Of a stretch of 30,472 nt of DNA, positions 3-30,472 are shown piece after piece; positions within the stretch are counted from its first letter, which is position 1; the number at the start of each line of letters is the position of its first letter. The position numbers and the translations under genes are program-made. The stretch is from a virus, in the IMG/VR virus record IMGVR_UViG_3300024520_000347, positions 1 to 30,472 of that record; one strand, 5' to 3'. The notes under the pieces were generated by a model. The model was not told the origin of the DNA. It ran no database searches and saw only the letters and a program-made list of their open reading frames with translations.

Positions 3-140
3 GGCGCCGGCTACGGCTCCGGCTCCGGCGACGGCTACGGCGACGGCTACGGCTACGGCGACGGCTACGGCTACGGCGACGGCGACGGCGACGGCTACGG
101 CTACGGCGACGGCTACGGCTACGGCTCCGGCTCCGGCTAC
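3..140 (+). repeat. Low-complexity GGC-NNC hexamer repeat encoding (Gly-Xaa)n
   Basis: 46 codons alternate GGC with TAC, GAC or TCC (one GCC). The units are grouped into small blocks such as GYGYGD, which suggests expansion by slippage or unequal recombination. All changes keep the frame and Gly at every other position, so the repeat is under coding constraint. Confidence 0.9.
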
Positions 141-431
141 TGGCTCGCTGCGTTGAAGGACCACGAGTCAGCTGGCATTCTTGCATTCTGGCGCAGCGAC
201 GCCAACGGGCAGCCGTGCAACGGCGGCAGCGGCGACCCCGTTGCAGTCGGCCTGATCGAGACCGTCCCGGGGCCGTTGCAACTGTGTAGCCGCTCCACAC
301 TTCACGCCACGATGGAGCCGGGCAACTGGGACGGTGAACGGCTATGGGTCGTTGCCCTCCACGGGGAGGTAGCGTGCGACGGTGACAAGATCGGGGCCCT
401 GAAACGCGAATTCATAGCGGAGATCAAGTAG
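3..431 (+). CDS. Gly-Xaa repeat protein, 5'-truncated by window edge
   Basis: The reading frame is open from base 3, so the gene enters from outside the window; a TTG at 153 would be an internal start but the repeat upstream is in the same frame. The visible part begins with 23 Gly-Xaa dipeptides (Xaa mainly Tyr, Asp or Ser), then a globular domain of about 96 residues. Recognisable elements are AFWRSDANGQPCNGGSG, a GPLQLCS segment, LHAT, WDGERLWVVALHGEV and a terminal GALKREFIAE. I recall similar repeat-plus-domain proteins in phages and soil bacteria, without a known biochemical role. It ends one base before the next start codon, so it is part of the early small-gene operon. Function unknown. 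Confidence 0.75.
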   Translation, partial: GAGYGSGSGDGYGDGYGYGDGYGYGDGDGDGYGYGDGYGYGSGSGYWLAALKDHESAGILAFWRSDANGQPCNGGSGDPVAVGLIETVPGPLQLCSRSTLHATMEPGNWDGERLWVVALHGEVACDGDKIGALKREFIAEIK

Positions 432-1127: not shown

Positions 1128-1202
1128 ATGCGTCAACAACGTGAGCAGGAAGAGTACCGAGACGGGGCCCGGAACTGGCGCCGTAGTAGGGAGTTGAAGT
1201 GA
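1128..1202 (+). CDS. 24-aa charged peptide, coupled to next gene
   Basis: ATG lies 5 nt after the SSB-like stop and the stop overlaps the next GTG by 4 nt (GTGA), matching the spacing habit of the neighbouring real genes. The product is very polar and basic, with an EEYRDGARNWRRSRELK end, and is probably one helix. An alternative ATG at 1123 opens another frame (24 aa) but without a coupled junction. Function unknown. Confidence 0.45.
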   Translation: MRQQREQEEYRDGARNWRRSRELK

Positions 1203-1414
1203 GGGGCGCGGACTGTTGCTGGCGTGTACCGAAGGGGACCCTGTGCGGCTACAGCACCAATACGGTTACTTACCGCGTGGCGCATGAGGGGGCAAAGGGG
1301 TACCTAGAGATCCCGCTCTGTATGAAACACAGCGGGATGCTCACCAAACGCATGTGGCACGTGGTGCCACTGACTGCTGATGCTCGGCCGCCGTGGCTGC
1401 GAGACGACCAGTGA
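1199..1414 (+). CDS. Small Cys-rich protein, function unknown
   Basis: GTG start in a GTGA overlap with the preceding peptide; 71 residues. Cysteines at the start (DCCWRV), mid N-terminus (LCGYS) and centre (LCMKHSG) plus a nearby histidine suggest a single zinc-binding knuckle. The middle (TNTVTYRVAHEGAKGYLEIPLCMKH) reads as two beta strands, as in small zinc-ribbon proteins. It is the third link in a run of 4-nt-overlapping genes. Confidence 0.65.
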   Translation: MRGADCCWRVPKGTLCGYSTNTVTYRVAHEGAKGYLEIPLCMKHSGMLTKRMWHVVPLTADARPPWLRDDQ

Positions 1415-1629
1415 CACCTGAGCGGCAACGGCGCCGTGAGCTCATCGCGGCCCGGTACACGGAACGTACCAGAGAGCCCAAGGTCCATCTCCGTAGACGG
1501 GGCGGCCGCGGGCCATGGTCACCGGCGTGCAAGTGGAAGCCGTTCTCGTGGTGGCTGACCAGCAACGATGAGGACGAGGTTACGTGTCTGCTGTGCCGGC
1601 GGCGGATGCGGGAAAGGGACGACTCATGA
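1411..1629 (+). CDS. Small basic protein with CxxC, function unknown
   Basis: GTG start overlaps the preceding stop (GTGA); 72 residues. The N-terminus is strongly basic (PERQRRRELIAARYTERTRE), followed by a Trp-rich stretch (ACKWKPFSWWLTS) and a C-terminal CLLCRRRM. The basic character and cysteines fit nucleic-acid binding, but no family is recognised. The stop overlaps the next ATG (ATGA). Confidence 0.6.
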   Translation: MTPERQRRRELIAARYTERTREPKVHLRRRGGRGPWSPACKWKPFSWWLTSNDEDEVTCLLCRRRMRERDDS

Positions 1630-2009
1630 CACGGTGCTCACTCTGCAAGGACGGAACCTGCAGCTTCTGTGTCGCACAGGCCCGGATTCGTGAGCTGGAG
1701 CTGCGCGTGGCGGAGCTGACCGACATTTCCCCGACGCCTGAGCGGCGTGCAGCGATGCCTGAGGGCGACCGCAGCCGCTGGCCAGGCGTACCGCCGGCCG
1801 TGTGGGCGATGCTGGACAGGGCGCGGGAACGGGTTGCGGAGCTGGAGGCGGAGCGGTCCGACTATACTGCAGCGCTACGCATCTGCACCGACGCACTGCT
1901 CGACCTAGGCGCCACCGACGTGCTGAGCAGCCTTGTGCAGTACATCGGCATGCCCGGCGACACGACAGGAGGTAGCGATGAAGAAGACCGACACGCGATG
2001 GAAAAGTAG
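1626..2009 (+). CDS. Zinc-knuckle plus coiled-coil protein
   Basis: ATG in an ATGA overlap with the preceding gene; 127 residues. The first 16 residues carry two close Cys pairs (CSLCKDGTCSFC), which read as a compact zinc knuckle. A heptad-like helix (ARIRELELRVAELTDI) follows, then a second helix rich in Glu/Arg (ARERVAELEAERSDYTAAL). This layout is common in small phage early proteins of unknown role. It overlaps the following gene by 32 nt. Confidence 0.65.
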   Translation: MTRCSLCKDGTCSFCVAQARIRELELRVAELTDISPTPERRAAMPEGDRSRWPGVPPAVWAMLDRARERVAELEAERSDYTAALRICTDALLDLGATDVLSSLVQYIGMPGDTTGGSDEEDRHAMEK

Positions 2010-2298
2010 GGTAGATGAAGCCAGCAAATTGCGGTTGGTGGAATGTGTGGACTGCGGAGCCTCGCCGGGCGACCCATGTCGTTCACCGCATGGCCGGGCG
2101 ACGCACCCACACAGATGGCGCTATCACGCCACTATTCTCGACCAAGCCGACACCATAAACCGGCTGTTGGGCCGGTTGCAGTCCAAGCCGAAGAGGGTGG
2201 TGGCTGACAGGAACAGGAACAGGCACCGGGACGCAGGCAAACCGTTGCCGTCGGACGAACGACTCGACGCCCTAGTAGTACCTGGCGATACCGACTAG
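1978..2298 (+). CDS. Phage DNA-binding zinc-finger-type protein
   Basis: ATG preceded by a strong AGGAGGT site; 106 residues. Residues around 23-48 match the small zinc-finger signature seen in many actinobacterial and other phages: C-x2-C-G-A-x-P-G-x-P-C-R-x(n)-H-x2-R (here CVDCGASPGDPCRSPHG followed by HPHRWR). The rest is basic and ends in an acidic stretch. By family this suggests nucleic-acid binding. The last 27 nt overlap the 3' end of the endolysin-like gene on the opposite strand. Confidence 0.75.
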   Translation: MKKTDTRWKSRVDEASKLRLVECVDCGASPGDPCRSPHGRATHPHRWRYHATILDQADTINRLLGRLQSKPKRVVADRNRNRHRDAGKPLPSDERLDALVVPGDTD

Positions 2299-2811
2299 CT
2301 CGGCCCGGCGCAAGTCAATCGGCCCCACCTCACGCACCTGGCCCTGTGTGCGGCTGTAGCTGCCCACGTTGCCGTCAATGACGGAGACGATGCCGGCCCC
2401 GTGCCGTATAGAACAGCGCTGAGCGTGCCCCTGCCACGGCATCGTACGGGGTAGGCAGATGTAGTCACCGACCTTGATGTCGAGCGGCTCGACGTAGCGG
2501 CCGATCTCGGCAATCTCTCGGAGCAGCCACCGGGCACTATGGACCTTGCGCCGCCACGGGATAGGGTGATGGTAGCCGCCGCGCTCGCACCAGACGACCT
2601 CGGCACGGTGCTGCAACGCGCTGCACCAGGAGCCGACGAAGCCGTGTGTCAGGCCCATTACAAACGAGCCGGAGTTGTTGGCTCCGACCTCGCCGCGACC
2701 TATCCACTCGCGCAGCACCTCGACGGCACCGCGCTGCATCTGCCGGAGCAGGTTCGGCCGCTCGTCGGGGACGCTGGCCACGCCCCAGGGGTATGTCAGG
2801 GTCGGTGTCAT
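2272..2811 (-). CDS. Endolysin: NlpC/P60 or CHAP-like cysteine amidase
   Basis: 179 residues from the ATG at 2811, which overlaps the stop of the tiny upstream gene (ATGA); a longer open frame to 2937 runs through the palindromic repeat and is unlikely. The arrangement is that of the small amidases with a papain-like fold: EWIGRGEVGANNSGSF at about 35-50, catalytic-type Cys in GSWCSAL (Cys63), a KVGDYICLP strand (about 113-121), His in RHGAGIVSVIDGNVG (His137), then a strand followed by a GIARYY end. I infer peptidoglycan cleavage at lysis. Location after holin-type genes agrees. Substrate bond not determinable. Confidence 0.65.
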   Translation of the reverse strand: MTPTLTYPWGVASVPDERPNLLRQMQRGAVEVLREWIGRGEVGANNSGSFVMGLTHGFVGSWCSALQHRAEVVWCERGGYHHPIPWRRKVHSARWLLREIAEIGRYVEPLDIKVGDYICLPRTMPWQGHAQRCSIRHGAGIVSVIDGNVGSYSRTQGQVREVGPIDLRRAELVGIARYY

Positions 2812-2894
2812 TGCTTGAACAGCGCCATCGCCAGGCCGACGAATCCGCACACGACCAGCGCGGCGAGGACGATGATGTCGTCGAGTATTACCAT
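2808..2894 (-). CDS. 28-aa membrane peptide of lysis cassette
   Basis: ATG at 2894 and TGA overlapping the endolysin start by 4 nt. The peptide is nearly all one membrane helix (ILDDIIVLAALVVCGFVGLA) ending in ALFKQ. Coupling to the endolysin supports a lysis role such as a mini-holin or pinholin-like or releasin-like peptide, but no family is recognised. It has no clear Shine-Dalgarno; a strong palindrome ends directly at its start codon, so its translation could be structure-controlled. Confidence 0.5.
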   Translation of the reverse strand: MVILDDIIVLAALVVCGFVGLAMALFKQ

Positions 2895-2895
2895 G

Positions 2896-2938
2896 GGCGA
2901 TACCTATCGCCACAAGGGGCGATAGGTATCGCCACAAG
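2896..2938 (-). promoter_or_regulatory. Tandem pair of perfect palindromes (hairpin or operator)
   Basis: Two 21-nt direct repeats with a 22-nt period (2896-2916 and 2918-2938), each containing the palindrome GGCGATA-NN-TATCGCC with NN = CC in one and GG in the other. Because the centres are complementary, the two copies also pair with each other as one 16-bp stem (2896-2911 with 2918-2933) and a 6-nt loop. No T-run follows on either strand, so a simple intrinsic terminator is not supported. It abuts the start codon of the 28-aa gene. Confidence 0.6.
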
Positions 2939-2958
2939 TGACGGCGTGTATCGACTTA

Positions 2959-3168
2959 TCACCACGTCCCCGCTATCCCGAACAGCGCCTCGTACGTCAG
3001 CCCGGCAGCTCCATCGCTCCAGGCATAGCCAGCTCTACCACTCGCGAAGAGTCCGAGGTTTTCGCGTAGCTTGGCCTCGAGGTCGAGTCCCAGCCCGGCG
3101 ACTCCGCCGGCACTGTTGCCGTCCAGATAGCCGTATCCGTGGACGCTGCCGGTGCCCGGCTTACGCAT
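2959..3168 (-). CDS. Small Gly/aromatic beta protein ending in Trp, unknown
   Basis: 69 residues from ATG at 3168. No membrane helix is seen. The second half alternates polar and apolar residues (LRENLGLFASGRAGYAW, then GLTYEALFGIAGTW), as in two antiparallel strands of an outer-membrane barrel, and the protein ends with an aromatic residue. The first half is Gly-rich (GYGYLDGNSAGGVAGLG). It lies between the holin candidate and the tiny membrane peptide. It could be a lysis accessory protein or a virion protein; I do not recognise a family. Confidence 0.55.
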   Translation of the reverse strand: MRKPGTGSVHGYGYLDGNSAGGVAGLGLDLEAKLRENLGLFASGRAGYAWSDGAAGLTYEALFGIAGTW

Positions 3169-3200
3169 CGATAGTGAAGCGAGGCGCGCATTGATGCGGC

Positions 3201-3446: not shown

Positions 3447-3758
3447 CTATCCTCCTATCAGCAGGTTTGCCGCCAACGTTGCGACAGTCGTAACCACGGC
3501 AATCATAGCACCGAGTTTGAGCGCTAGGCCCTCCGTTCGCTTGTCCAGCTTGTTGAGGGTGTCGCGATTCTCGTCGATGTGTAGATCGAGCTTTTCCACT
3601 GTAGTCTCCAACACTTTCAGCCTTCCTGCGGCACCGCTATCGCCTACGGTTTCGATTCGGAACGCATCCAATTTGCGTAATCTGTCGTGATGTATAGCGA
3701 GCTGGCCACGAAGGATGTCCATCACGCTCGTGACCGGGGTCAAGTCGTCGTCACTCAT
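3447..3758 (-). CDS. XhlA-like coiled-coil protein with C-terminal membrane helix
   Basis: 103 residues from ATG at 3758, which overlaps the upstream stop (ATGA) and follows a short AGAG site. Residues about 40-80 form a heptad-type coiled coil (LKVLETTVEKLDLHIDENRD, then LNKLDKRTEGL), and the C-terminus is one membrane helix (LGAMIAVVTTVATLAANLLIGG ends the protein). This is the layout of hemolysin XhlA-type proteins that sit next to holin and endolysin genes. An inner-membrane spanin subunit normally has the helix at the N-terminus, so that is less likely. Confidence 0.6.
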   Translation of the reverse strand: MSDDDLTPVTSVMDILRGQLAIHHDRLRKLDAFRIETVGDSGAAGRLKVLETTVEKLDLHIDENRDTLNKLDKRTEGLALKLGAMIAVVTTVATLAANLLIGG

Positions 3759-4057
3759 GGGATCTCTTGGTAGCCGTACTTGTCCATGAACGCCGTCCAA
3801 GCTTCGTCACGGAATGCAGCGTTGATCCAGCTAAAGTTCAGCGGCGCATCTTCCCTGACATGCTCCCAGATCTCAAGTTCGGAGCCGTCGTCGTGACGCA
3901 CGGTAAAAGAGACTGTGCAGTCTGTACGCCACTCGACCGTGTGACCTGTTACGTGTCCGTCGCCGTCCAGTACCGGAACCCGTACACGGGTACGGACGAA
4001 GTTCGCCCCGATAGCGTCCGAGCCGCTGAATCCTGACTTGATTGGTTTTTGAATCAT
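3755..4057 (-). CDS. Small beta protein, function unknown
   Basis: 100 residues. A beta-rich centre (TRVRVPVLDGDGHVTGHTVEW, then DCTVSFTVRHDDGSELEIWE) is followed by a helical end with aromatic residues (WINAAFRDEAWTAFMDKYGY). The 4-nt overlap with the next gene places it in the same operon between the last fibre gene and the lysis cassette. It could be a small virion or chaperone protein; no family recognised. Confidence 0.6.
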   Translation of the reverse strand: MIQKPIKSGFSGSDAIGANFVRTRVRVPVLDGDGHVTGHTVEWRTDCTVSFTVRHDDGSELEIWEHVREDAPLNFSWINAAFRDEAWTAFMDKYGYQEIP

Positions 4058-4065
4058 CGTGGTAC

Positions 4066-4965
4066 CTATGCGGGGACGATCTGTACCCAGTTGCTAACGC
4101 CGTCGCTGATGAGCCACGTCCAGATGTTTTGCGCCGGAGTTGTAACGTCGCTGGTGTCGCCGCCTGCCGGGGTAATGGTGCGACTCGTGGCGCCCGTAAA
4201 CTTGATTAGGAACTGGAAGCCCCGGCCAGTAGTTGACGCGTCCGGGAGTGTAATTGCCGCAGTGGCCGCGGTTAGGATGACGCAGTAGTCGGCATCGTCA
4301 GCCGCATACGCTGCCGATGCCGTTTCCAAGTAGTCGCAAGCCAGTCCGTTGGTGAACGTGGTTTTCCAGCGCTTGGACGTGATGCCGTTGCTGCTTACCG
4401 CGTTCGTGAATGAGTTGATACGCGACGCGCCCCAGGTCATGGCCGGTGTGCCACCTGTGTAAAGCGTGCCCTCGGACGTGGCTCCACACATCACATAAAC
4501 TTTGCCGTCGTTGAGCATCTGCAGGCTGCCCTCGGACGCCCCATCGCGGTCAAAGTGCGAGAACATCGCCCTGTCGGCCGTCTGTGAATGAATGACCGCG
4601 ATCCCTAATGTGTGGGCGGTGCCTACGTCTGCCGATAGGGCGAGCGTCGCCGCGCCGCTGATTGCTCCGGCATCCGTCTCTACGAGTACCGACTCCTGCA
4701 GACCCCGTACACCGCCATCGCCGCGAACGTGAGTGTTGTCCGCTATGGCAGCAGCGGCAAGGGTTACGGTTGCGGGGGTGACATCTGCGCCGGCCTCAAT
4801 GGCGTCCAACTTGGTAATCTGCGCGGCTGTAGCAACGCCCTTCTGCGCAGCGGTCGCGTCCTGGATGTCGTCGGAGCCGTTGGTGTGCGTAGCCGCGTGG
4901 ACTCCGCCGGCTCCTCCGCTGCCACCATATAGCGGCTCAGGATATACGTCTGGGTTCCTGCCCAT
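4066..4965 (-). CDS. Tail fibre / appendage protein
   Basis: 299 residues. The N-terminal part contains a pattern typical of phage fibres, HAATHTNGSDDIQDATAAQKG followed by ITKLDAIEAGADVT, which in known fibres lies in the trimeric shaft. The centre is Gly/Ser/Thr/Ala-rich with repeated short strands, and the C-terminus is a beta domain (ITLPDASTTGRGFQFLIKF, then WTWLISDGVSNWVQIVPA) of the type found at the ends of spikes and fibres. I infer host-surface recognition. No intramolecular chaperone domain is visible at its end. Confidence 0.7.
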   Translation of the reverse strand: MGRNPDVYPEPLYGGSGGAGGVHAATHTNGSDDIQDATAAQKGVATAAQITKLDAIEAGADVTPATVTLAAAAIADNTHVRGDGGVRGLQESVLVETDAGAISGAATLALSADVGTAHTLGIAVIHSQTADRAMFSHFDRDGASEGSLQMLNDGKVYVMCGATSEGTLYTGGTPAMTWGASRINSFTNAVSSNGITSKRWKTTFTNGLACDYLETASAAYAADDADYCVILTAATAAITLPDASTTGRGFQFLIKFTGATSRTITPAGGDTSDVTTPAQNIWTWLISDGVSNWVQIVPA

Positions 4966-4967
4966 GG

Positions 4968-5393
4968 CTATCTCCCCACCAGGTAAGCATCAACCGCAGT
5001 GTCGGTGCCGCCGATGGCTGTGATCTCGAGGTAGACGCGGTCGTAGTGCTGCAGCCCGTTCACGAGTTCTGTGTGTAGCAACGAATTCGCCGCTACCTCG
5101 CCGATCGCGTTGCCTTGATTGAGAACGCCCTTTGTGGAGTCACCGGAATGTGTACCTAGCGGCATCCACTCAGCTACCGCCACGGCGTAGACCCAGAACT
5201 TGAGCGTCACGGTCATCGTCGCGGAGCCTGCGGTGCTCTTGACGACGATCGCGCACTGACCGTCTACCGGCACGAAGTGAGATACGCCCGCCTGGGGGTT
5301 GTCGATGCCGGCCAGGCCGAATCCAACATCCGTACTGCCCGCAGTGGGCGGGGAGTTGGTGGCCGTGGCCGCGCTTAGGAGTTGGATCTTCAT
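4968..5393 (-). CDS. Virion beta protein, paralog of the 5397-5816 product
   Basis: 141 residues, ATG at 5393. It aligns end to end with its upstream neighbour: both start MKI-L-L, share ATATN, STAGSATMTVT, W-YA-AV, W-P-G-H, GNAI-EVAA, LLxHTEL, GL--Y-R-Y-EITAIGGT and end GR. The composition (Thr/Ala/Val strands, no cysteine cluster) fits a beta-sandwich appendage protein. It probably arose by tandem duplication; a role as alternate or stacked appendage subunit is inference. Confidence 0.65.
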   Translation of the reverse strand: MKIQLLSAATATNSPPTAGSTDVGFGLAGIDNPQAGVSHFVPVDGQCAIVVKSTAGSATMTVTLKFWVYAVAVAEWMPLGTHSGDSTKGVLNQGNAIGEVAANSLLHTELVNGLQHYDRVYLEITAIGGTDTAVDAYLVGR

Positions 5394-5396
5394 GAG

Positions 5397-5816
5397 CTAC
5401 CGCCCGTGTACGTAGAGGTCTACCGCTGTCGCTGTGCCGCCGATGGCCGTGATCTCGGCGTAGATGCGCTCGTAGTTGTCCAGGCCCGTAATGAGCTCGG
5501 TGTGACGTAGCAAGTCCGCTGCCACCTCGTCAATCGCGTTGCCCTCGTTGATGAGTCCCCGGCTGGCTGCTGTAGCGTGGCTGCCAAACGGCACCCAGTT
5601 GCCAACAGCTGCGGCATAGACCCAGATCTTGACCGTGACGGTCATAGTGGCGGATCCGGCCGTGCTCTCGAGGGTAAGCCCGCACACGCCGTCGTTTGGT
5701 ACGTCGTGGCTAAGACCGGTGAACCCAAGTCCTGCGAGCGGGAAGCCCACGGTGGCGTCTCCGTCGGTTGGTACGCCGTTGGTGGCCGTGGCGCCGTCAA
5801 GGAGTTTGATCTTCAT
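5397..5816 (-). CDS. Virion beta protein, paralog of the 4968-5393 product
   Basis: 139 residues from the ATG at 5816, chosen because AAGGA lies 8-12 nt upstream and the paralog starts with the same MKI; a GTG at 5840 would add 8 residues that overlap the previous gene. The shared core with the neighbour includes STAGSATMTVTVKIWVYA and the EITAIGGT end. Placed among fibre-type genes, so a virion appendage role is likely. Confidence 0.65.
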   Translation of the reverse strand: MKIKLLDGATATNGVPTDGDATVGFPLAGLGFTGLSHDVPNDGVCGLTLESTAGSATMTVTVKIWVYAAAVGNWVPFGSHATAASRGLINEGNAIDEVAADLLRHTELITGLDNYERIYAEITAIGGTATAVDLYVHGR

Positions 5817-5826
5817 TGTCCAGTCC

Positions 5827-6660
5827 TTATACGCCAACACGGGCGCAGTTTAGATTCATGCTCGACGGGATAAAGTCTGATGACGTTCCGGCAGCTGCTA
5901 CGCGCACGTCCAGGTCTTGCCCAGCGGCTGCAACGATATACCCCGAGCACGCAGCGCGGCCGGTGTCGGTGCCGGTGCCGATCTTGCGCTCGAGCAGCAC
6001 ATTGTCTTGAGCGGCACCGTTAAGATACACCTTCATCGTGTATGTCTCGTTAGTGGTGCCCGTCCACGACACCGAAAACGTGACCTTGTAGGTTCCGGCA
6101 GTGTCCAGCGTGATCTTGTTGCTAGCCTTCGCGTTGGTGGCCCCGTTGCTGGCGCCGTCTGCGCCCGCCGCTGTGTTGAAGCCTGTTATCAAGTCGAACG
6201 TGTCCGCTGAGGCGTTTGTGACCTGTGTGGTTGATCCACCGGCAACGTAGATCTCGCCATAGACCGGGATCTGAAACGACAGAGCGCCTGAGCCGTCACT
6301 CTCGAGTTGCCCGGCCGCATCAGCTGACGGCCAGGTCAGCGTGTAGTTGGGGCTGATGGCGTTGTTAGCCTTCATCTGGAACCAGCCGCTAGTCTGGCCA
6401 TCCCAGATGATGGTGCCGTCCATGTTCAGATTGTTCCACGGCACCGGGGATGTCCCGAGGCTGCCGGTGCCGATTACGTCTCCGGGGACGTTCAGATCGC
6501 TACCGTCGAATGTAAACCCGGAAGTTGAAGTCATGCCTCCGCCGCCGCTCTTGCCATGCGGAACTCGATCGACTGCAAGATCCGTTGGCGAGTCCGCTAA
6601 CGCGTGCGTACTGGACCCTCGGTATAGCCCCTGCGGCCCTGTTTTTACTCCGTTACCCAC
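5827..6660 (-). CDS. Tail appendage protein with C1q/TNF-like C-terminal domain
   Basis: About 277 residues from a GTG at 6660, 5 nt after an AAGGAGG site (a GTG at 6663 is also possible). The N-terminus has PQGLYR, shared with the 7413-7799 product. The middle includes LNMDGTIIWDG, common in fibre proteins. Residues about 185-277 look like a C1q/TNF jelly roll: ITLDTAGTYKVTFSVSW, TYTMKVYLNG, then GQDLDVRVAAAG and a final NLNCARVGV strand. Such domains trimerise and bind ligands; I infer an adhesin or appendage tip. Confidence 0.65.
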   Translation of the reverse strand: MGNGVKTGPQGLYRGSSTHALADSPTDLAVDRVPHGKSGGGGMTSTSGFTFDGSDLNVPGDVIGTGSLGTSPVPWNNLNMDGTIIWDGQTSGWFQMKANNAISPNYTLTWPSADAAGQLESDGSGALSFQIPVYGEIYVAGGSTTQVTNASADTFDLITGFNTAAGADGASNGATNAKASNKITLDTAGTYKVTFSVSWTGTTNETYTMKVYLNGAAQDNVLLERKIGTGTDTGRAACSGYIVAAAGQDLDVRVAAAGTSSDFIPSSMNLNCARVGV

Positions 6661-17800: not shown

Positions 17801-18916
17801 CTATAGCCCCTGGACCCATTGGGTTAATCGCGCAGCCACTGCCGATCTGGAATAAGCGAACATGCGATCCGCGTTGGCCGCGACATCGGCTGCTGTGTGC
17901 ATGGCGTGACCGCGACCAGCCCTATTCGAGTATGCGCGGCGCATCATGCGGCGCAATTCTCCGCCATCAGGTTCGGACCATAGCTGCCTAGCATTAACGC
18001 CGTGCGGGGCTGTGCGCGCTAGGACCACCTGACCATCAACCACCTTCCGTTCAAGCGCCGGCACCGCGCACACCATAACAACTGGGACCGTGGGGTAGTA
18101 CCCGCGCAGCTCCCTGAAGTAGCCCTGATGACCGCCCCATGCTGGGGCGATTGCAGGCCGACCAAACGCCACTGCGTCTGACAGCGGCAAGTTCCAAGCC
18201 TCGCCGCGTGACGCGGTCACGTAACAATCTCCGGCAGCGTGCAGCGTCCTTACCTCGCGATGCGGCACAGGCCCAACCGTGACCGATATCTCCGGGAGCT
18301 CATCGACCGGCAAGCCAAGCCCGAGGGTCACCCACTTACGCACATCGTCTACGTTGCAGCGATAGTCGGTTAGTACGCGCAGCTCAGTGGATTCGTCTGC
18401 TGTGAATTCGCCAACGTATGCGGCGATAACTCCTTGCAGATTCTTGCGATGCTCCCATGAGCCGATCGAGTAAAAAACGTAACTACCAGACCTGGGTGCC
18501 GGCATCGGCTCCGGTGTAACTACGTGCGGGATTACATCGACCGGGCCGCTAAACGCCGCGGCTGAACACTCGCTCGGTGTTGCGATCTTCACGTAGCGCT
18601 CGCGCAGTGCAGCTTCCAACTTTGCGGGTACCTTGTCGGTTTCCCATGTCGTCATCAGCGCCGTCGGCGCTTTGTCGTCGATGCAGATGCTTAGTGCTAC
18701 GCCGATCGGTGCGTGAACCACGAGCACATCCGCGGTATCTGTACCGCCGCGGATGTGCTCGATCGATTCTGCGTGAAAGTCGGACGGGCCGTCGGTTCCG
18801 ATATTCGCCACGACTACATCGGCCCCTGAGCCGTGCAGCGCCAGTACATAGTCAGCCGCTGCCTGAGAATACCCAGACGGGCTACCAAACGGAGCGATGT
18901 ACCCGATCCTCGTCAT
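17801..18916 (-). CDS. GT4-type (GT-B fold) glycosyltransferase
   Basis: 371 residues; ATG overlaps the upstream stop (ATGA). N-terminal GSPSGYSQAAADYVLALH (about 11-28) is the Gly-rich loop of GT-B enzymes; the second Rossmann half starts at YSIGSWEHRKNLQGVIAAYV (about 149-168), where the Arg-Lys binds the nucleotide-sugar phosphates. Then HAAGDCYVTASRGEAWNLPL (226-245) and SDAVAFGRPAIAPAWGGHQG carry the donor-binding E-x7-E motif as E239-x7-D247. I infer transfer of a sugar from a nucleotide donor. It lies within the structural operon, so virion proteins or a host envelope glycan are candidate acceptors. Confidence 0.8.
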   Translation of the reverse strand: MTRIGYIAPFGSPSGYSQAAADYVLALHGSGADVVVANIGTDGPSDFHAESIEHIRGGTDTADVLVVHAPIGVALSICIDDKAPTALMTTWETDKVPAKLEAALRERYVKIATPSECSAAAFSGPVDVIPHVVTPEPMPAPRSGSYVFYSIGSWEHRKNLQGVIAAYVGEFTADESTELRVLTDYRCNVDDVRKWVTLGLGLPVDELPEISVTVGPVPHREVRTLHAAGDCYVTASRGEAWNLPLSDAVAFGRPAIAPAWGGHQGYFRELRGYYPTVPVVMVCAVPALERKVVDGQVVLARTAPHGVNARQLWSEPDGGELRRMMRRAYSNRAGRGHAMHTAADVAANADRMFAYSRSAVAARLTQWVQGL

Positions 18917-19735: not shown

Positions 19736-20476
19736 CTACAGTACCCAGTACCCGAGCTGGAACTCCCAGCTGATACCGGCCGTCTGGCTCGTTGCGTTGG
19801 TCTGCCACAGGAACGAATCCCCGGGGCCGATACTGACCGGCGGTACGCCAACGTTCATTACTACCGGCGCCGTTGCGTTGATGATGCCCTGCGCCGATGC
19901 CTCGCCGCGCCCGCCGAAGTTGAAGTTGTAGACATCGCCCACAACCCCGATCACGACACGCAACACCCCGCCGCTGATGAGCCGCTGAGCCGAAGCTGCA
20001 GGGCTAACCAGTGCGCCGAAGTGAATACGCGCACCGGACTCGGACTCCGCGTCTGCGTTGGTGCAGACCGGCGTGATTGCCGATCCGCCCGACGTGTAGC
20101 GGGTAACCGTGTCTGTGTGCATGACGTACGCCAGATCGGTACCATTTGCCCCGGCAGCCGTGACCATGACGGTCAGGAAGTCGAGGTAGATACGCTTGCC
20201 ACTCGCCGCAGAATTGCGGTTGAACACACTGAGCGTGTTCTGCAGGTTGTTGATGCCATCCGCGGCGGCGAAGCCGGCGATTCCGGTTCCCGCAGTCGGG
20301 TTAGTGGCCACGAAATACTGGCCCTGTTCAGCCGCTCCATAGGCCGGCTTCCCGTGTTCTGCAACGTGCAGTTTCCCGCGACGCGACAGACCCACCGGGC
20401 CATTGGTGTCGTTGGCGACGGCTTCCTGTTGGTCCTGATGAGCCTCGCCGTACAGTTTGACGTCGTCGAATCCCAT
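19736..20476 (-). CDS. Capsid-associated protein, tandem paralog 2
   Basis: 246 residues. It aligns along its whole length with the next upstream gene product: both have an EAHQDQ or EVHQDQ start, SRRGKL-VA-HGKP, AEQG-YFVATNPTAGTG, AADGIN, AASGKRIYLDFLT, VTAAG-NGTD, a RYTSGGSAIT strand, a GDVYNFNFGG or GDIYNFNFGG strand and EFQLGYW at the end. The gene follows MCP, so a head decoration or vertex role is likely; no enzymatic motif is seen. Confidence 0.65.
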   Translation of the reverse strand: MGFDDVKLYGEAHQDQQEAVANDTNGPVGLSRRGKLHVAEHGKPAYGAAEQGQYFVATNPTAGTGIAGFAAADGINNLQNTLSVFNRNSAASGKRIYLDFLTVMVTAAGANGTDLAYVMHTDTVTRYTSGGSAITPVCTNADAESESGARIHFGALVSPAASAQRLISGGVLRVVIGVVGDVYNFNFGGRGEASAQGIINATAPVVMNVGVPPVSIGPGDSFLWQTNATSQTAGISWEFQLGYWVL

Positions 20477-20478
20477 GA

Positions 20479-21222
20479 CTAGTACTCCCAGTACCCGAGT
20501 TGGAACTCGAGGCTCTTAGCAACCGACTGCGACGAGCAGTTCAGCTGGAAGATCCAAGAGTCACCCTGACCGAGTATGACCGGCACGCACGGAACGTTCA
20601 TGACTGCGGGGGCGGTGCTGTTCACGATGCCAGCCGCAGACACGTCACCGTGGCCACCGAAGTTGAAGTTGTAGATATCGCCGATCACGGAGATAACCAC
20701 GCGGAGGATTCCGCCGCCGAGCAGCCGGGCCGAGGTGGCCGCGGGTGCGACGATAGCGCCAAAGTAGATCGTGGCGCCGCTGGTGTTGCTGCTGTCTGCG
20801 TTCGGGTTGACCTCGGTGATCGCGCTTCCGCCAGACGTGTAGCGGTCCGCATTATCGACGTGGTGCACGAACGCGACGTCGGTGCCGTTGGTACCGGCAG
20901 CCGTCACAAACAAGGTCAGGAAATCGAGATAGATCCTCTTCCCGCTTGCCGCCGTGTTGTCGTTCGTGAGTACGCAGAGCGCTTCGAGCGGGTTGATCCC
21001 GTCCGCGGCTGCCAGACCCGCCACGCCAGTTCCGGCAGTCGGGTTGGTTGCCACGAAATACTCGCCCTGCTCGGCGACGTTTGTCATGGGCTTGCCGTGA
21101 GACGCGACGTTCAACTTGCCGCGGCGCGACATCGTGAGCTGACCGTTGGTGCTGTTGGCGTGAGTAGATGACTGGTCCTGATGGACCTCGGCCCACATTT
21201 TACGATCTTCTGGTGTTGCCAT
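20479..21222 (-). CDS. Capsid-associated protein, tandem paralog 1
   Basis: 247 residues, ATG at 21222, 17 nt after the capsid stop. It shares the entire fold-level pattern with its downstream neighbour, including FVATNPTAGTGVAGLAAADG and TSGGSAIT. Position directly after MCP and the duplication suggest two related head proteins, for example a decoration pair or proteins occupying non-equivalent sites. This copy has extra Cys residues (LCVLTND, NVPCVPVI and LNCSSQ). Confidence 0.65.
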   Translation of the reverse strand: MATPEDRKMWAEVHQDQSSTHANSTNGQLTMSRRGKLNVASHGKPMTNVAEQGEYFVATNPTAGTGVAGLAAADGINPLEALCVLTNDNTAASGKRIYLDFLTLFVTAAGTNGTDVAFVHHVDNADRYTSGGSAITEVNPNADSSNTSGATIYFGAIVAPAATSARLLGGGILRVVISVIGDIYNFNFGGHGDVSAAGIVNSTAPAVMNVPCVPVILGQGDSWIFQLNCSSQSVAKSLEFQLGYWEY

Positions 21223-21239: not shown

Positions 21240-23064
21240 CTAGATGCTGAAGACGCCGTTAGCGCCAGGGGTGGTGCAACAGGGGTTACCCATGCTGCGG
21301 GTGCGGACCTCGATGCTGTCCTCGTTGTAGACACGGAGGGCCGGGCCGCCGCGATCGTCCTGAATGACGTGCACCCAGTTCTTGAGGGTCTTCCAGTACC
21401 AGGTCTTGAGCGACACGACGTAGCCGCGATTCGTCGGGCAGTCCGGGTCAGAGATGCAGCGCATCGTGCCGGCTGGCGTCGCGATGTCGAAGCCCTCGAA
21501 CCCGTAAGTGGCTTTGTTCCCGCCGCCGTCATACGTGATCTTGGCGTTGAGACGTCGGACCACGGCCCAGAAGTTGATCGGGTTCAGGAGTAGAACGCCG
21601 TCCTTGGAGAAGCGCTTGCCGAGTTGCGAGATCTTCACGCAGATCAGGCCGGCGTTCTCTTCGATGGCGGTGCTATCGTCGTCCACGCGGGCGCCGGAAA
21701 GGCGTTTCGCGTCAACGGACCGATCCACTCCACGGAAAGACTCCGAGAGGGTCGGCGCCGCAAGCGGAATGTGAGACTCGAGGCCATCGATGATGGTGCC
21801 AGGGTCGCCGAGACGGAACAGATAATCGCTGTCTGCGAAGCTGGTGATTCCGGTCTCGTCGTCGAGAGTGACCGTTCCGGCGTCTTCATCGACATTTGCG
21901 ACTACCGCGGAGCCGGCCCGAAGCGAGCTGCCGGCTTCGGTGTTGTCGGCGACGACTGTCATGCCGACCTTGAAGTTACGAGCGTCGTCAGCAACGGTCA
22001 TCGTGATCGTGTCAGACGAGATGCTGGAGCGCTGACCGCGGTGTCCGTGGCCGTCACGGTACAGCTCGTAACAAAGCGAGTCCCCGTGCTCTTCGATGAT
22101 GCCGTCGGATTCCTGGGAGCCTAGTTGTTACCGCTGAGCGTTTAAGCTCAACTTCTGCGAGTTTCCCCGCAGAGCAGACTATATCTTCACCCCTAGGGGT
22201 GCTGCGCACTCGTGGGCCTTTACCGTCTCTGTGAGACTCCATGGCCTAGTCGTTGAACCTTCCCCGCCGTCGCCGGGGGGCTTGGCTGCTGATTGCCCAA
22301 TCCGCTCGCTTTTCAAACCGTCACGCCTGCCGTTGCCAGCTACGTTGTGGTGCGAGGGGCTATAAGGGGTTTCCAGCATTTCACGCAGTTTTCTACGCTG
22401 CCGCTAAGCAGCGAGTCGCCGATTGACGAGATCCAGGAATGCGCCGCGATTGTCTTCCGCCGCAACGAGCGCCTCACCGTCGAGGGTGATGATGCCGTAC
22501 TTCTTGCGACGCGTTGCCTGCATCTGGACGCCCTTCGAGGACGCGGCTGCAGACTGCGCGGATGTGAAAGTTCCGGAGACTCCCTGCGGGTTGCCGTAGC
22601 GGATCGCATAGAAGTGACCGGCGGCCGGACCGGACATGCCGCCGACCTTCTTGACCATGGTGCCGAGCGGGTGATCGCGCATCGCGAGATCTCCCACCTG
22701 GCCGTCCTGGTATTTGCGCTTATAGATGTCGGGTGTGTTAGCGCTGCACGTTTAAGCGCAGCTCTTCGAGTTTCCCCGAAGCCCAGACTATATCTTCGTC
22801 CACTTGGGACGTCCCGCACTCGTGGCGCTTTACCGTCTCTGAGAGACTCCATGCGCTAGTCGTTGAACCTTCCACCGCTCGCGCGGAGGCTTGGCTGCTG
22901 ATTGCCCAATCCGACAACTTTTCAACCCGTCGCGCTTGCGATTGCTCGCTTCGCTGTGGAGTGTCGGCTCTAAGGGGTTTCCAGCAATTCACGGGATTAT
23001 CCTCGCTCGGTTACCCGAGCAGGGCTCCATTTGAAGCGACATTGGTTAATGTACTAGCTGCCAC
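21240..23064 (-). CDS. Major capsid protein, three exons split by two group I introns
   Basis: Exon 1 is 23013-23064: GTG start, AGGGAG 8 nt upstream, 17 codons beginning AASTLTNVASNGALLG. Exon 2 is about 22406-22729 and contains YKRKYQDGQVGDLAMRDHPL, NPQGVSGTFTSAQSAAASSK, KKYGIITLDGEALVAAEDN and GAFLDLVNRR. Exon 3 is about 21240-22120 and contains ESDGIIEEHGDSLCYELYRD, RNFKVGMTVVADN, DEDAGTVTLDDETGI, SIEENAGL-type and WYWKTLKNWVHVI segments. Joined they give about 418 residues with the order of parts of a podovirus-type major capsid protein. Each exon runs into a stop at or just after its 5' splice point. It lies directly after the scaffold gene. Splice points are modelled, not proved: exon 2 could start at 22741, and the exon 2/3 join could be 22407/22112; each keeps the frame. 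Confidence 0.8.
22121..22405 (-). ncRNA. ORF-less group I intron 2 in capsid gene
   Basis: Near copy of intron 1. P1 is CGCTGCT of exon 2 paired with GGCAGCG of the intron (six Watson-Crick pairs and a U-G). The block at 22279-22302 is identical to intron 1. P7 strands are GGTTCAACGACTAG (22246-22259) and GAAGATATAGTC (22177-22188), with P8 CACCCCTAGGGGTG just before the latter. P9 is TCTGCG/CGCAGA and the last hairpin GTTGAGC/GCTCAGC again has loop TTAAAC. After P7 the sequence GATATAGTCTGCTCTGC equals that of the T4 td intron as I recall it. Alternative ends 22113 and 22406 keep frame and would place the U-G pair exactly at the 5' splice site. Confidence 0.85.
22730..23012 (-). ncRNA. ORF-less group I intron 1 in capsid gene
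   Basis: Read on the - strand: P1 hairpin with 5' exon GCTCGG pairing to intron CCGAGC; P3/P4 strands TTGCTGGAAACCCC and the block 22888-22911; P7 5' strand GGTTCAACGACTAG (22856-22869); a hairpin GTCTC-TCA-GAGAC; P8-type palindrome GGGACGTCCC; P7 3' strand GAAGATATAGTC (22786-22797); P9 hairpin CTTCGG/TCGAAG; and a last hairpin GCTGCGC/GTGCAGC with loop TTAAAC. The modelled ends follow group I rules (U before, G at the end). Resembles the T4 td intron around P7 and P9. No ORF inside. The 3' end could also be 22742. Confidence 0.85.
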
Positions 23065-29257: not shown

Positions 29258-29694
29258 GAGTGTCCGAGTAGCTCGTCGTCGCCGATACGCTCGGCCGCGG
29301 CAGCGTAGATTGCCTCGCGGCGCTTCTTGGTCAGTTCGCTCAGCCAGATGATTGCACAGCCGTCTAGCACCTCGGGGGTGATATCGGCGTCCATGGCTAC
29401 GTCGTGCTTTTCCCGCTGCCGGGATTCTGCCTCGAGCTGGGCCACTGCCCTGGCTACGTTGGCGGATTCGCGGAGGACGGCCGGTGTTGCCCCGCCGCCG
29501 CAGTACTTGCACTTGAGATTCTCGAAGGTAGCCTCGACGGAGGCCTGGAGTAGTTCCAGGTGCCGGGCCGTTCTCTCGATTCGCTCGACTGTGGGGGGCT
29601 CAGCAGAGGAAGAGGAGGCCGTAACGGCCGGCTTCTTCTTGGTCTTGGTCTTGCGGCGCTTTTTTGGCGGCGCTAGTTCTGTGTGTTTGCCCAT
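29254..29694 (-). CDS. Possible small terminase subunit
   Basis: 146 residues. A very basic, Lys-rich start (KKRRKTKTKKK) and a Ser-rich linker are followed by helices (ERIERTARHLELLQASVEAT), a CKYCGGG knuckle, and a long helical end (LRESANVARAVAQLEAESRQ, then ELTKKRREAIYAAAAERIGD). Size, charge, helical character and position at the head of the packaging operon fit a small terminase, but no motif proves it. The first 95 nt overlap the endonuclease gene in another frame. Confidence 0.45.
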   Translation of the reverse strand: MGKHTELAPPKKRRKTKTKKKPAVTASSSSAEPPTVERIERTARHLELLQASVEATFENLKCKYCGGGATPAVLRESANVARAVAQLEAESRQREKHDVAMDADITPEVLDGCAIIWLSELTKKRREAIYAAAAERIGDDELLGHS

Positions 29695-30424
29695 TGGTTA
29701 GGTACGTTACAGCGTTGGCTATTGCCTGTGCGTTGTCCCGGAACTGGCCGAGGCCAGCGTTGCAGTGCGGGCACAATACCCCGCGCAGCTCATTGCTCGC
29801 ATGGCAGTGGTCCAAGCACGCCGTATTCTTCTTCTTCGGTTCCAACGTAAGCTGAACCGCGCAGAGCGCGCAGCCGCCGGCCTGGTCTGCGATCATCTGC
29901 TCAAACTGAGCCTGCGTTATCCCGTACCTGTGCAGGCGCCAGCCGCCGTTGGTACGCCTGGTCGCAGCCCGCTTAGCAGCCTGCTTTTCGATACAAGGTG
30001 GACAACGTTTCTTGGGGTTGCCGGTCTGGTGCCATGTCGAACCACAGGACTCACACGTGGCCGCTTTCGGTTTCGCGCGATGTGCGGACCTCTTCGCGGC
30101 GGCGCGACATATACCACACAACGGAGGGTCTCCGGCGACCCTCTTGAAGCAAGAGGAGCCACAACTGCCGCACTTCGTCCTTGATGTAACCCTTCGTGCC
30201 TCAGTTTTTGCCTGCGCGCGGCAGTGGCCGCATAGCCCGTCGTCCCTTTTCCAACACGCCGCGCCGCACGATTTGCACGGATGCTTCCGTGAAGCCCTAG
30301 AGACAGCGTCGTAGTGTGCCTTCCTGCACCTCGCCGTACACCAACGTTGGTGTGATTTGGCTAAAAGCGGCAGCTGATCGCCGCATTCCTCGCATTTTCT
30401 ATCAGTTTTGAGCTTTCCGCCCAT
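29600..30424 (-). CDS. Endonuclease VII-type nuclease with four zinc modules
   Basis: 274 residues from ATG at 30424 (a TTG at 30436 adds four). Four successive Cys4-type modules fill residues 10-150: CEECGD...CTARC; CKSCGAACWKRDDGLCGHC; CGSCGSSC...LCGIC; CESCGS...CPPC. The C-terminal domain matches recombination endonuclease VII: YGITQAQFEQMIADQAGGCA, LDHCHAS (His-Me finger), RGVLCPHCNAGLGQFRDN with the metal-binding Asn, and a final helix. T4 gp49 of this family resolves branched DNA before packaging. Here it opens the packaging operon. The tail after ITYL-type helix overlaps the next gene. Confidence 0.8.
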   Translation of the reverse strand: MGGKLKTDRKCEECGDQLPLLAKSHQRWCTARCRKAHYDAVSRASRKHPCKSCGAACWKRDDGLCGHCRAQAKTEARRVTSRTKCGSCGSSCFKRVAGDPPLCGICRAAAKRSAHRAKPKAATCESCGSTWHQTGNPKKRCPPCIEKQAAKRAATRRTNGGWRLHRYGITQAQFEQMIADQAGGCALCAVQLTLEPKKKNTACLDHCHASNELRGVLCPHCNAGLGQFRDNAQAIANAVTYLTNGQTHRTSAAKKAPQDQDQEEAGRYGLLFLC

Positions 30425-30472
30425 TGGTATGGCCAAAAGGTCTCAGTTTGGGGGGTGTGGTGCGCTTAAGCT
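30425..30472. other. Right edge, no gene seen
   Basis: The last 48 nt upstream of the nuclease gene contain a G-run (seven G) and no readable promoter or gene; too short to interpret. Confidence 0.5.

Follow-up and report, generated by a model that had tools for sequence, protein, structure and literature searches.

Can a major capsid gene that is interrupted twice by group I introns still be the source of a full-length capsid protein? The question is raised by positions 23064-21240 (minus strand) of the window, by which we mean the whole of an IMG/VR virus record of 30,472 bases, a metagenomic contig judged to be probably incomplete since relatives reach 59 kb. An earlier note had proposed that this region holds a major capsid gene split by two group I introns, a proposal borne out by two RF00028 matches above threshold and by a joined frame of 404 amino acids; the locus is best read as a major capsid gene holding two group I introns, a reading supported by the evidence below. 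We consider it very likely that both introns, which are endonuclease-free, are excised to make the 404-residue protein.

Layout and predicted product of the split capsid gene

On the minus strand of the record, a terminase gene (phrog_2, 4e-26), a portal gene and a scaffold-like gene are followed by the capsid region, in which one major capsid gene runs from a GTG at 23064 to a stop codon ending at 21240. In 5' to 3' order it consists of an exon of 31 nt, a group I intron of 304 nt, an exon of 304 nt, a group I intron of 306 nt and an exon of 880 nt, the exon ends being set by intron-less relatives together with the P1 rule (U.G helices). Exon 1 (23034-23064, minus strand), whose GTG start is preceded by GGGAG and which ends GTCGCTT, was placed by aligning the joined frame with 15 intron-less relatives and by the P1 U.G pair at the junction. 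Exon 2 (22426-22729, minus strand), placed from relatives, begins ACATCTAT and ends GATCTCGT. Exon 3 (21240-22119, minus strand, stop included) begins CTCCCAGG and shows unbroken homology to relatives L003-L005. The junctions accordingly read GTCGCUU| at the end of exon 1, ACAUCUAU...GAUCUCGU| for exon 2 and CUCCCAGG at the start of exon 3. Joining the exons yields an in-frame protein of 404 amino acids, equal in length to its relatives, all of whose codons are open and conserved. It aligns with the 15 relatives without gaps at both junctions, the first ('LTNVA-Y-IYKRKY') falling opposite 'LTATAYIFRIYY' and the second ('GAFLDLV-SQESDGII') opposite 'GAFYDFVTMETDGII' of a relative.

The capsid identity of this product is supported by homology, fold and gene order. 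Residues 4-217 of the spliced protein, a span that includes both junctions, match the phrog_14242 family, annotated 'major head protein', at 1e-8. An AlphaFold model of the intron-less relative L004 (pLDDT 72, pTM 0.71) finds its best solved matches among the capsids of SU10, VP1 and other tailed phages (E 1e-10, probability 1.00), with modest TM-scores of 0.42/0.48 for the top hit. Assignment to the HK97-fold major capsid proteins is thus made by homology for the spliced protein and by fold for the L004 model, and on this modelling the gene belongs to an uncultured tailed phage whose predicted capsid fold is closest to that of phage SU10. The spliced protein has no match to the Pfam family SU10_MCP (PF17236), or to any other Pfam family, at E values up to 1; PF17236 matches the distant relative L037 only, below the cut-off. 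The relatives share this gene order, with a portal and a scaffold-like gene before the capsid gene and the same neighbours after it. A tblastn search of deposited phage genomes found nothing related to the capsid protein, and no relative was confirmed in bacterial or archaeal genomes, so that no host is inferred.

Several other features of the window deserve mention. Directly after the capsid gene lie two adjacent paralogous genes (19736-20476 and 20479-21222, minus strand); since most relatives match both paralogues at the same place, they may represent a local duplication. A glycosyltransferase-like gene with a weak Pfam match (17801-18916, minus strand) sits within the structural gene block, and the contig opens on an open reading frame start encoding a low-complexity Gly-Tyr-Asp repeat (GDGYGYGDGYG; 3-150, plus strand). 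Upstream of the terminase gene, 29600-30436 (minus strand) encodes an HNH protein of the endonuclease VII type, free-standing and bearing several CxxC motifs that resemble zinc ribbons. It is 29-42% identical to endonucleases in intron loci, over about 80 domain residues only, a match that speaks neither for nor against collaborative homing.

Two group I introns and their predicted excision

Intron 1 (22730-23033, minus strand; 304 nt) and intron 2 (22120-22425, minus strand; 306 nt) had their ends set from intron-less relatives. The covariance-model check that the earlier note had called for gave two matches to RF00028, one of 72.8 bits (E 6.9e-17) at 23045-22764 for intron 1 and one of 82.2 bits (E 1.1e-19) at 22449-22155 for intron 2, both of which lie above the gathering cut-off of 50 bits and span model positions 1-253, the full model. 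Beside these two, the 30,472-base record holds no other Rfam match above gathering score. The P7-region strands to which the same note had drawn attention, GTTCAACGACTAG and GAAGATATAGTC, indeed occur in both introns. Sequence and RF00028 alignment place the P7 5' strand GACUA at 22857-22861 and its 3' partner UAGUC at 22790-22786 in intron 1, and the same strands, identical in sequence, at 22247-22251 and 22181-22177 in intron 2 (all minus strand).

The remaining helices point to RNA structure under constraint. In the P1 of intron 1 (23024-23037, minus strand), exon GCUU and intron C(+1) pair with the guide GGAGC, and in that of intron 2 (22416-22429, minus strand), exon UCGU and intron C(+1) pair with the guide GGCGA; exon and guide sequences covary, and at both 5' splice sites the pair is U.G. 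With the helices placed by hand, 22 of the 65 base pairs common to the two introns differ on both sides and two on one side, the two-sided changes falling in P1, P2, P3, the P5 extension, P6, P7.1, P8, P9 and P9.1. Together with the E-values, this lies far outside what chance would give. In both introns P7 and P3' are separated by two hairpins, P7.1 (which covaries) and P7.2, and on the strength of these hairpins the introns are judged IA-like; introns of the IA2 subgroup make up more than half of viral group I introns (PMC11835236). Both introns end in G (...CACCCG| and ...CUAGG|), the positions of these ends having been set from homologues. Inspection by eye revealed no convincing P10 pairing of the guide to the 3' exon at either site, so that the 3' ends were drawn from the homologues and the terminal G. 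At the level of sequence comparison, the structure of the gene, the identity of its introns and the constraint on their RNA structure are all shown.

Neither intron (304 and 306 nt) contains a homing endonuclease reading frame. When unspliced RNA is read from the start codon, an in-frame UAA is reached within intron 1, in its P2 loop (23011-23013, minus strand); exon 2 read on into intron 2 likewise meets an in-frame UAG in the P2 loop of that intron (22404-22406, minus strand). Each is the first in-frame stop, and both fall in the P2 loop despite differing local sequence and codon phases. The stops seen here fit the proposal, discussed in PMC3984707, that stops of this kind prevent ribosomes from entering intron cores.

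By analogy with established group I biology, from which we infer the splicing reaction, its efficiency and the effect on translation, each intron would fold within the late transcript, its internal guide sequence pairing with the 3' end of the preceding exon to leave a U.G at the splice site. Guanosine would then attack after the splice-site U and the exons would be ligated, both excisions being required for the 404-residue protein, while the in-frame stops just within each intron should hold ribosomes off the catalytic core. Since each virion requires hundreds of copies of the capsid protein, two obligatory splicing events in its gene would provide a strong natural test of the efficiency required of a phage ribozyme.

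It could be argued that neither intron is still active and that the gene is a split copy or one in decay, the capsid being assembled from separate fragments or encoded by an intact gene outside the contig. Some endonuclease-bearing phage introns do not splice, as in the nicotinamide phosphoribosyl transferase gene of CB7 and nrdA of Aeh1 (PMC7344957), and the contig is probably incomplete, which leaves room for a capsid gene elsewhere in the genome. Decay is, however, difficult to reconcile with a frame in which every one of the 404 codons is kept, with cores that retain their pairing through 22 compensatory changes and with a first exon that encodes just 10 residues by itself. The earlier note had named, among the findings that would refute its reading, a virion protein made from another intact capsid gene; the 30,472-base record, itself probably partial, contains no second one. 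We regard inactive introns as extremely unlikely and retain a gene expressed through two excisions.

Origin of the pair and capsid genes as hosts of related introns

Capsid genes related to that of the window turned up in 17 distinct viral contigs (20 loci, three of them repeats), each as a single unbroken frame, and none of 67 related contigs (in sets of 3, 14 and 50) contained an RF00028 match, which argues that the introns are a sporadic gain in the lineage. A single intron is found in the more distant relative L037, whose capsid gene (phrog_14242) it interrupts at another position. Introns 1 and 2 share 81% identity over 262 nt and, in a tree of 142 introns (hits of at least 50 bits), group as sisters (FastTree support 0.98, ultrafast bootstrap 100). 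Upon addition of low-scoring introns, an intron of the contig L101 joins their clade (support 0.81), weakening the strict sister relation; it is 84% identical to intron 1 over 193 nt and is the next-closest to it among the matches listed. L101 carries two introns in a phrog_267-type capsid gene (1191-3200, minus strand), one with an HNH-like reading frame and the other being the one that resembles intron 1. We note that this capsid gene comes from an unrelated phage and is itself unrelated to that of the window, despite the likeness of the introns.

How the pair arose and why it persists admit of more than one answer. The identity of the two introns and their sister placement among the 142 are suggestive of one having been copied from the other inside the gene by ectopic transposition, for instance by reverse splicing. 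Against this stand the L101 intron, its place in the clade and its closeness to intron 1, and two arrivals from one capsid-dwelling lineage would fit equally well; we give in-gene copying roughly an even chance, and both it and repeated arrival of such a lineage are possible. As to persistence, the introns might be kept because splicing regulates capsid output according to growth state or GTP level, rather than being neutral passengers. They sit in the most abundant structural gene, and T4 intron splicing is a precedent in that it depends on translation and growth state. The absence of introns from all 67 related contigs nevertheless speaks for sporadic gain and against a conserved regulatory feature, making a regulatory role very improbable.

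Both introns of the window are members of a widespread family of phage introns, one often found in capsid genes. A search of viral contigs for the intron-core pattern returned at least 120 stretches, indicating that the family is common. From these, 98 stop-free stretches downstream of such introns were taken (89 at 90% identity), drawn from among the matches listed and not a random sample. Major head proteins account for at least 47 of the 98 downstream exons and fall into several unrelated families: 25 match phrog_1328, 12 phrog_267 and five phrog_1357, with further cases in phrog_283 (L029 and L114), phrog_371 (L024), phrog_29 (L041) and phrog_14242 (L037). The three commonest of these families showed no overlap in members scanned singly. 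Terminase, on the other hand, lies outside the 25 commonest families among the 98 stretches, such that at most two members match any single terminase family. Recognising viral contigs through hallmark genes may exaggerate the count for capsid, yet it should do so for terminase too. Among contigs of at least 30 kb, at least nine of 32 are capsid cases. In a control using another intron core, phrog_267 was matched by eight and phrog_1328 by four of 64 exons, a smaller share from which it appears that capsid preference varies by intron lineage. The 'ATPase' family phrog_1297 accounts for 14 of the 64 control exons, and tail sheath for five.

Capsid genes with more than one intron recur in this material. 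The contig L059 (IMGVR_UViG_3300020414_002119) has six group I introns within 2.2 kb (3637-5845) of one N4/phrog_1357-type capsid gene, whose seven exons, the first of about 12 nt (M-W-I-D), match phrog_1357 at 2e-13 once joined. Four introns are present in the capsid genes of L033 and L017, at least four in that of L115, and five matches in that of L112; at least two occur in those of L014, L024, L029, L042, L053, L088, L099, L107, L114 and L119. Together these fourteen contigs represent no fewer than five head-protein families that are unrelated to one another. Within a capsid family the same insertion points turn up repeatedly, though each family has several. Outside capsid genes, a psbA (photosystem II D1) region in the viral contig L030 (3707-6668) has four group I intron matches.

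We tentatively suggest, as a possibility that we rate at somewhat less than even, that capsid genes are a preferred habitat of this largely endonuclease-free group I lineage across unrelated phages. The cause might be that its introns land, or persist, in whichever late transcript is most abundant, reverse splicing being one conceivable route, which would produce capsid genes with two to six introns. Were this true, it would run counter to the received view, in which conserved polymerase, reductase and terminase genes are the favoured sites of phage introns, and the apparent bias towards capsid over terminase would offer a handle on the spread of endonuclease-free introns. Many viral capsid genes in metagenomes would then be fragmented, mis-annotated or missed, affecting virus detection and capsid-based taxonomy. 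We found no paper reporting capsid enrichment of introns in the open-access literature, and the wider pattern is new as far as we know.

Comparison with known systems

Novelty at the level of the single locus is limited, as single phage capsid introns and a capsid gene in five pieces have already been published. The latter, in the zeta-group crAss-like phage OLRF01000054, comprises five exons separated by group I introns (Yutin et al. 2021, PMC7886860); together with the many multi-intron cases in IMG/VR, it corrects the earlier note's impression that two introns in one capsid gene are uncommon. As in the window, a major capsid gene is broken into several exons by group I introns, but those of OLRF01000054 were recognised by their endonuclease domains, whereas the window introns are of about 305 nt and endonuclease-free. 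The window gene is moreover unrelated and SU10-like, with splice sites resolved and compensatory changes counted.

The capsid intron of mycobacteriophage LittleE, whose splicing was demonstrated by RT-PCR and protein sequencing (PMC3706429), sets a precedent and likewise interrupts a major capsid gene as a group I-type element, the exon ending in U and the intron in G. It is a single intron of 819 bp with a LAGLIDADG endonuclease, in contrast to the two short, endonuclease-free introns of the window. Lactococcal phage Tuc2009, as cited in PMC3706429, has a group I intron in its capsid gene, which according to that citation is a single one, against two here. In a review of bacterial group I introns the phage targets listed are polymerases, reductases and terminases, while capsid goes unmentioned throughout (PMC3984707).

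Small group I introns (mean about 206 nt) also occur in the Jug (jumbo gut) phages, where the splicing of 37 of 76 is supported by metatranscriptomes (PMC12363816). They resemble the window introns in being small, and are numerous in essential genes; the Jug phages, however, are huge gut phages in which the named targets are terL, nrdD and DNA polymerase, not capsid (PMC12363816). Outside capsid genes, the tape measure gene of ICP1 contains three introns (PMC10448857), and genes of staphylococcal phage Twort two or three group I introns each (Landthaler and Shub, cited in PMC6669764). Twort thus shares with the window the presence of several group I introns in one phage gene. It differs, as far as the cited account goes, in that other genes are concerned and exon skipping was seen; given exon lengths of 31, 304 and 880 nt, skipping of exon 2 in the window gene would shift the frame.
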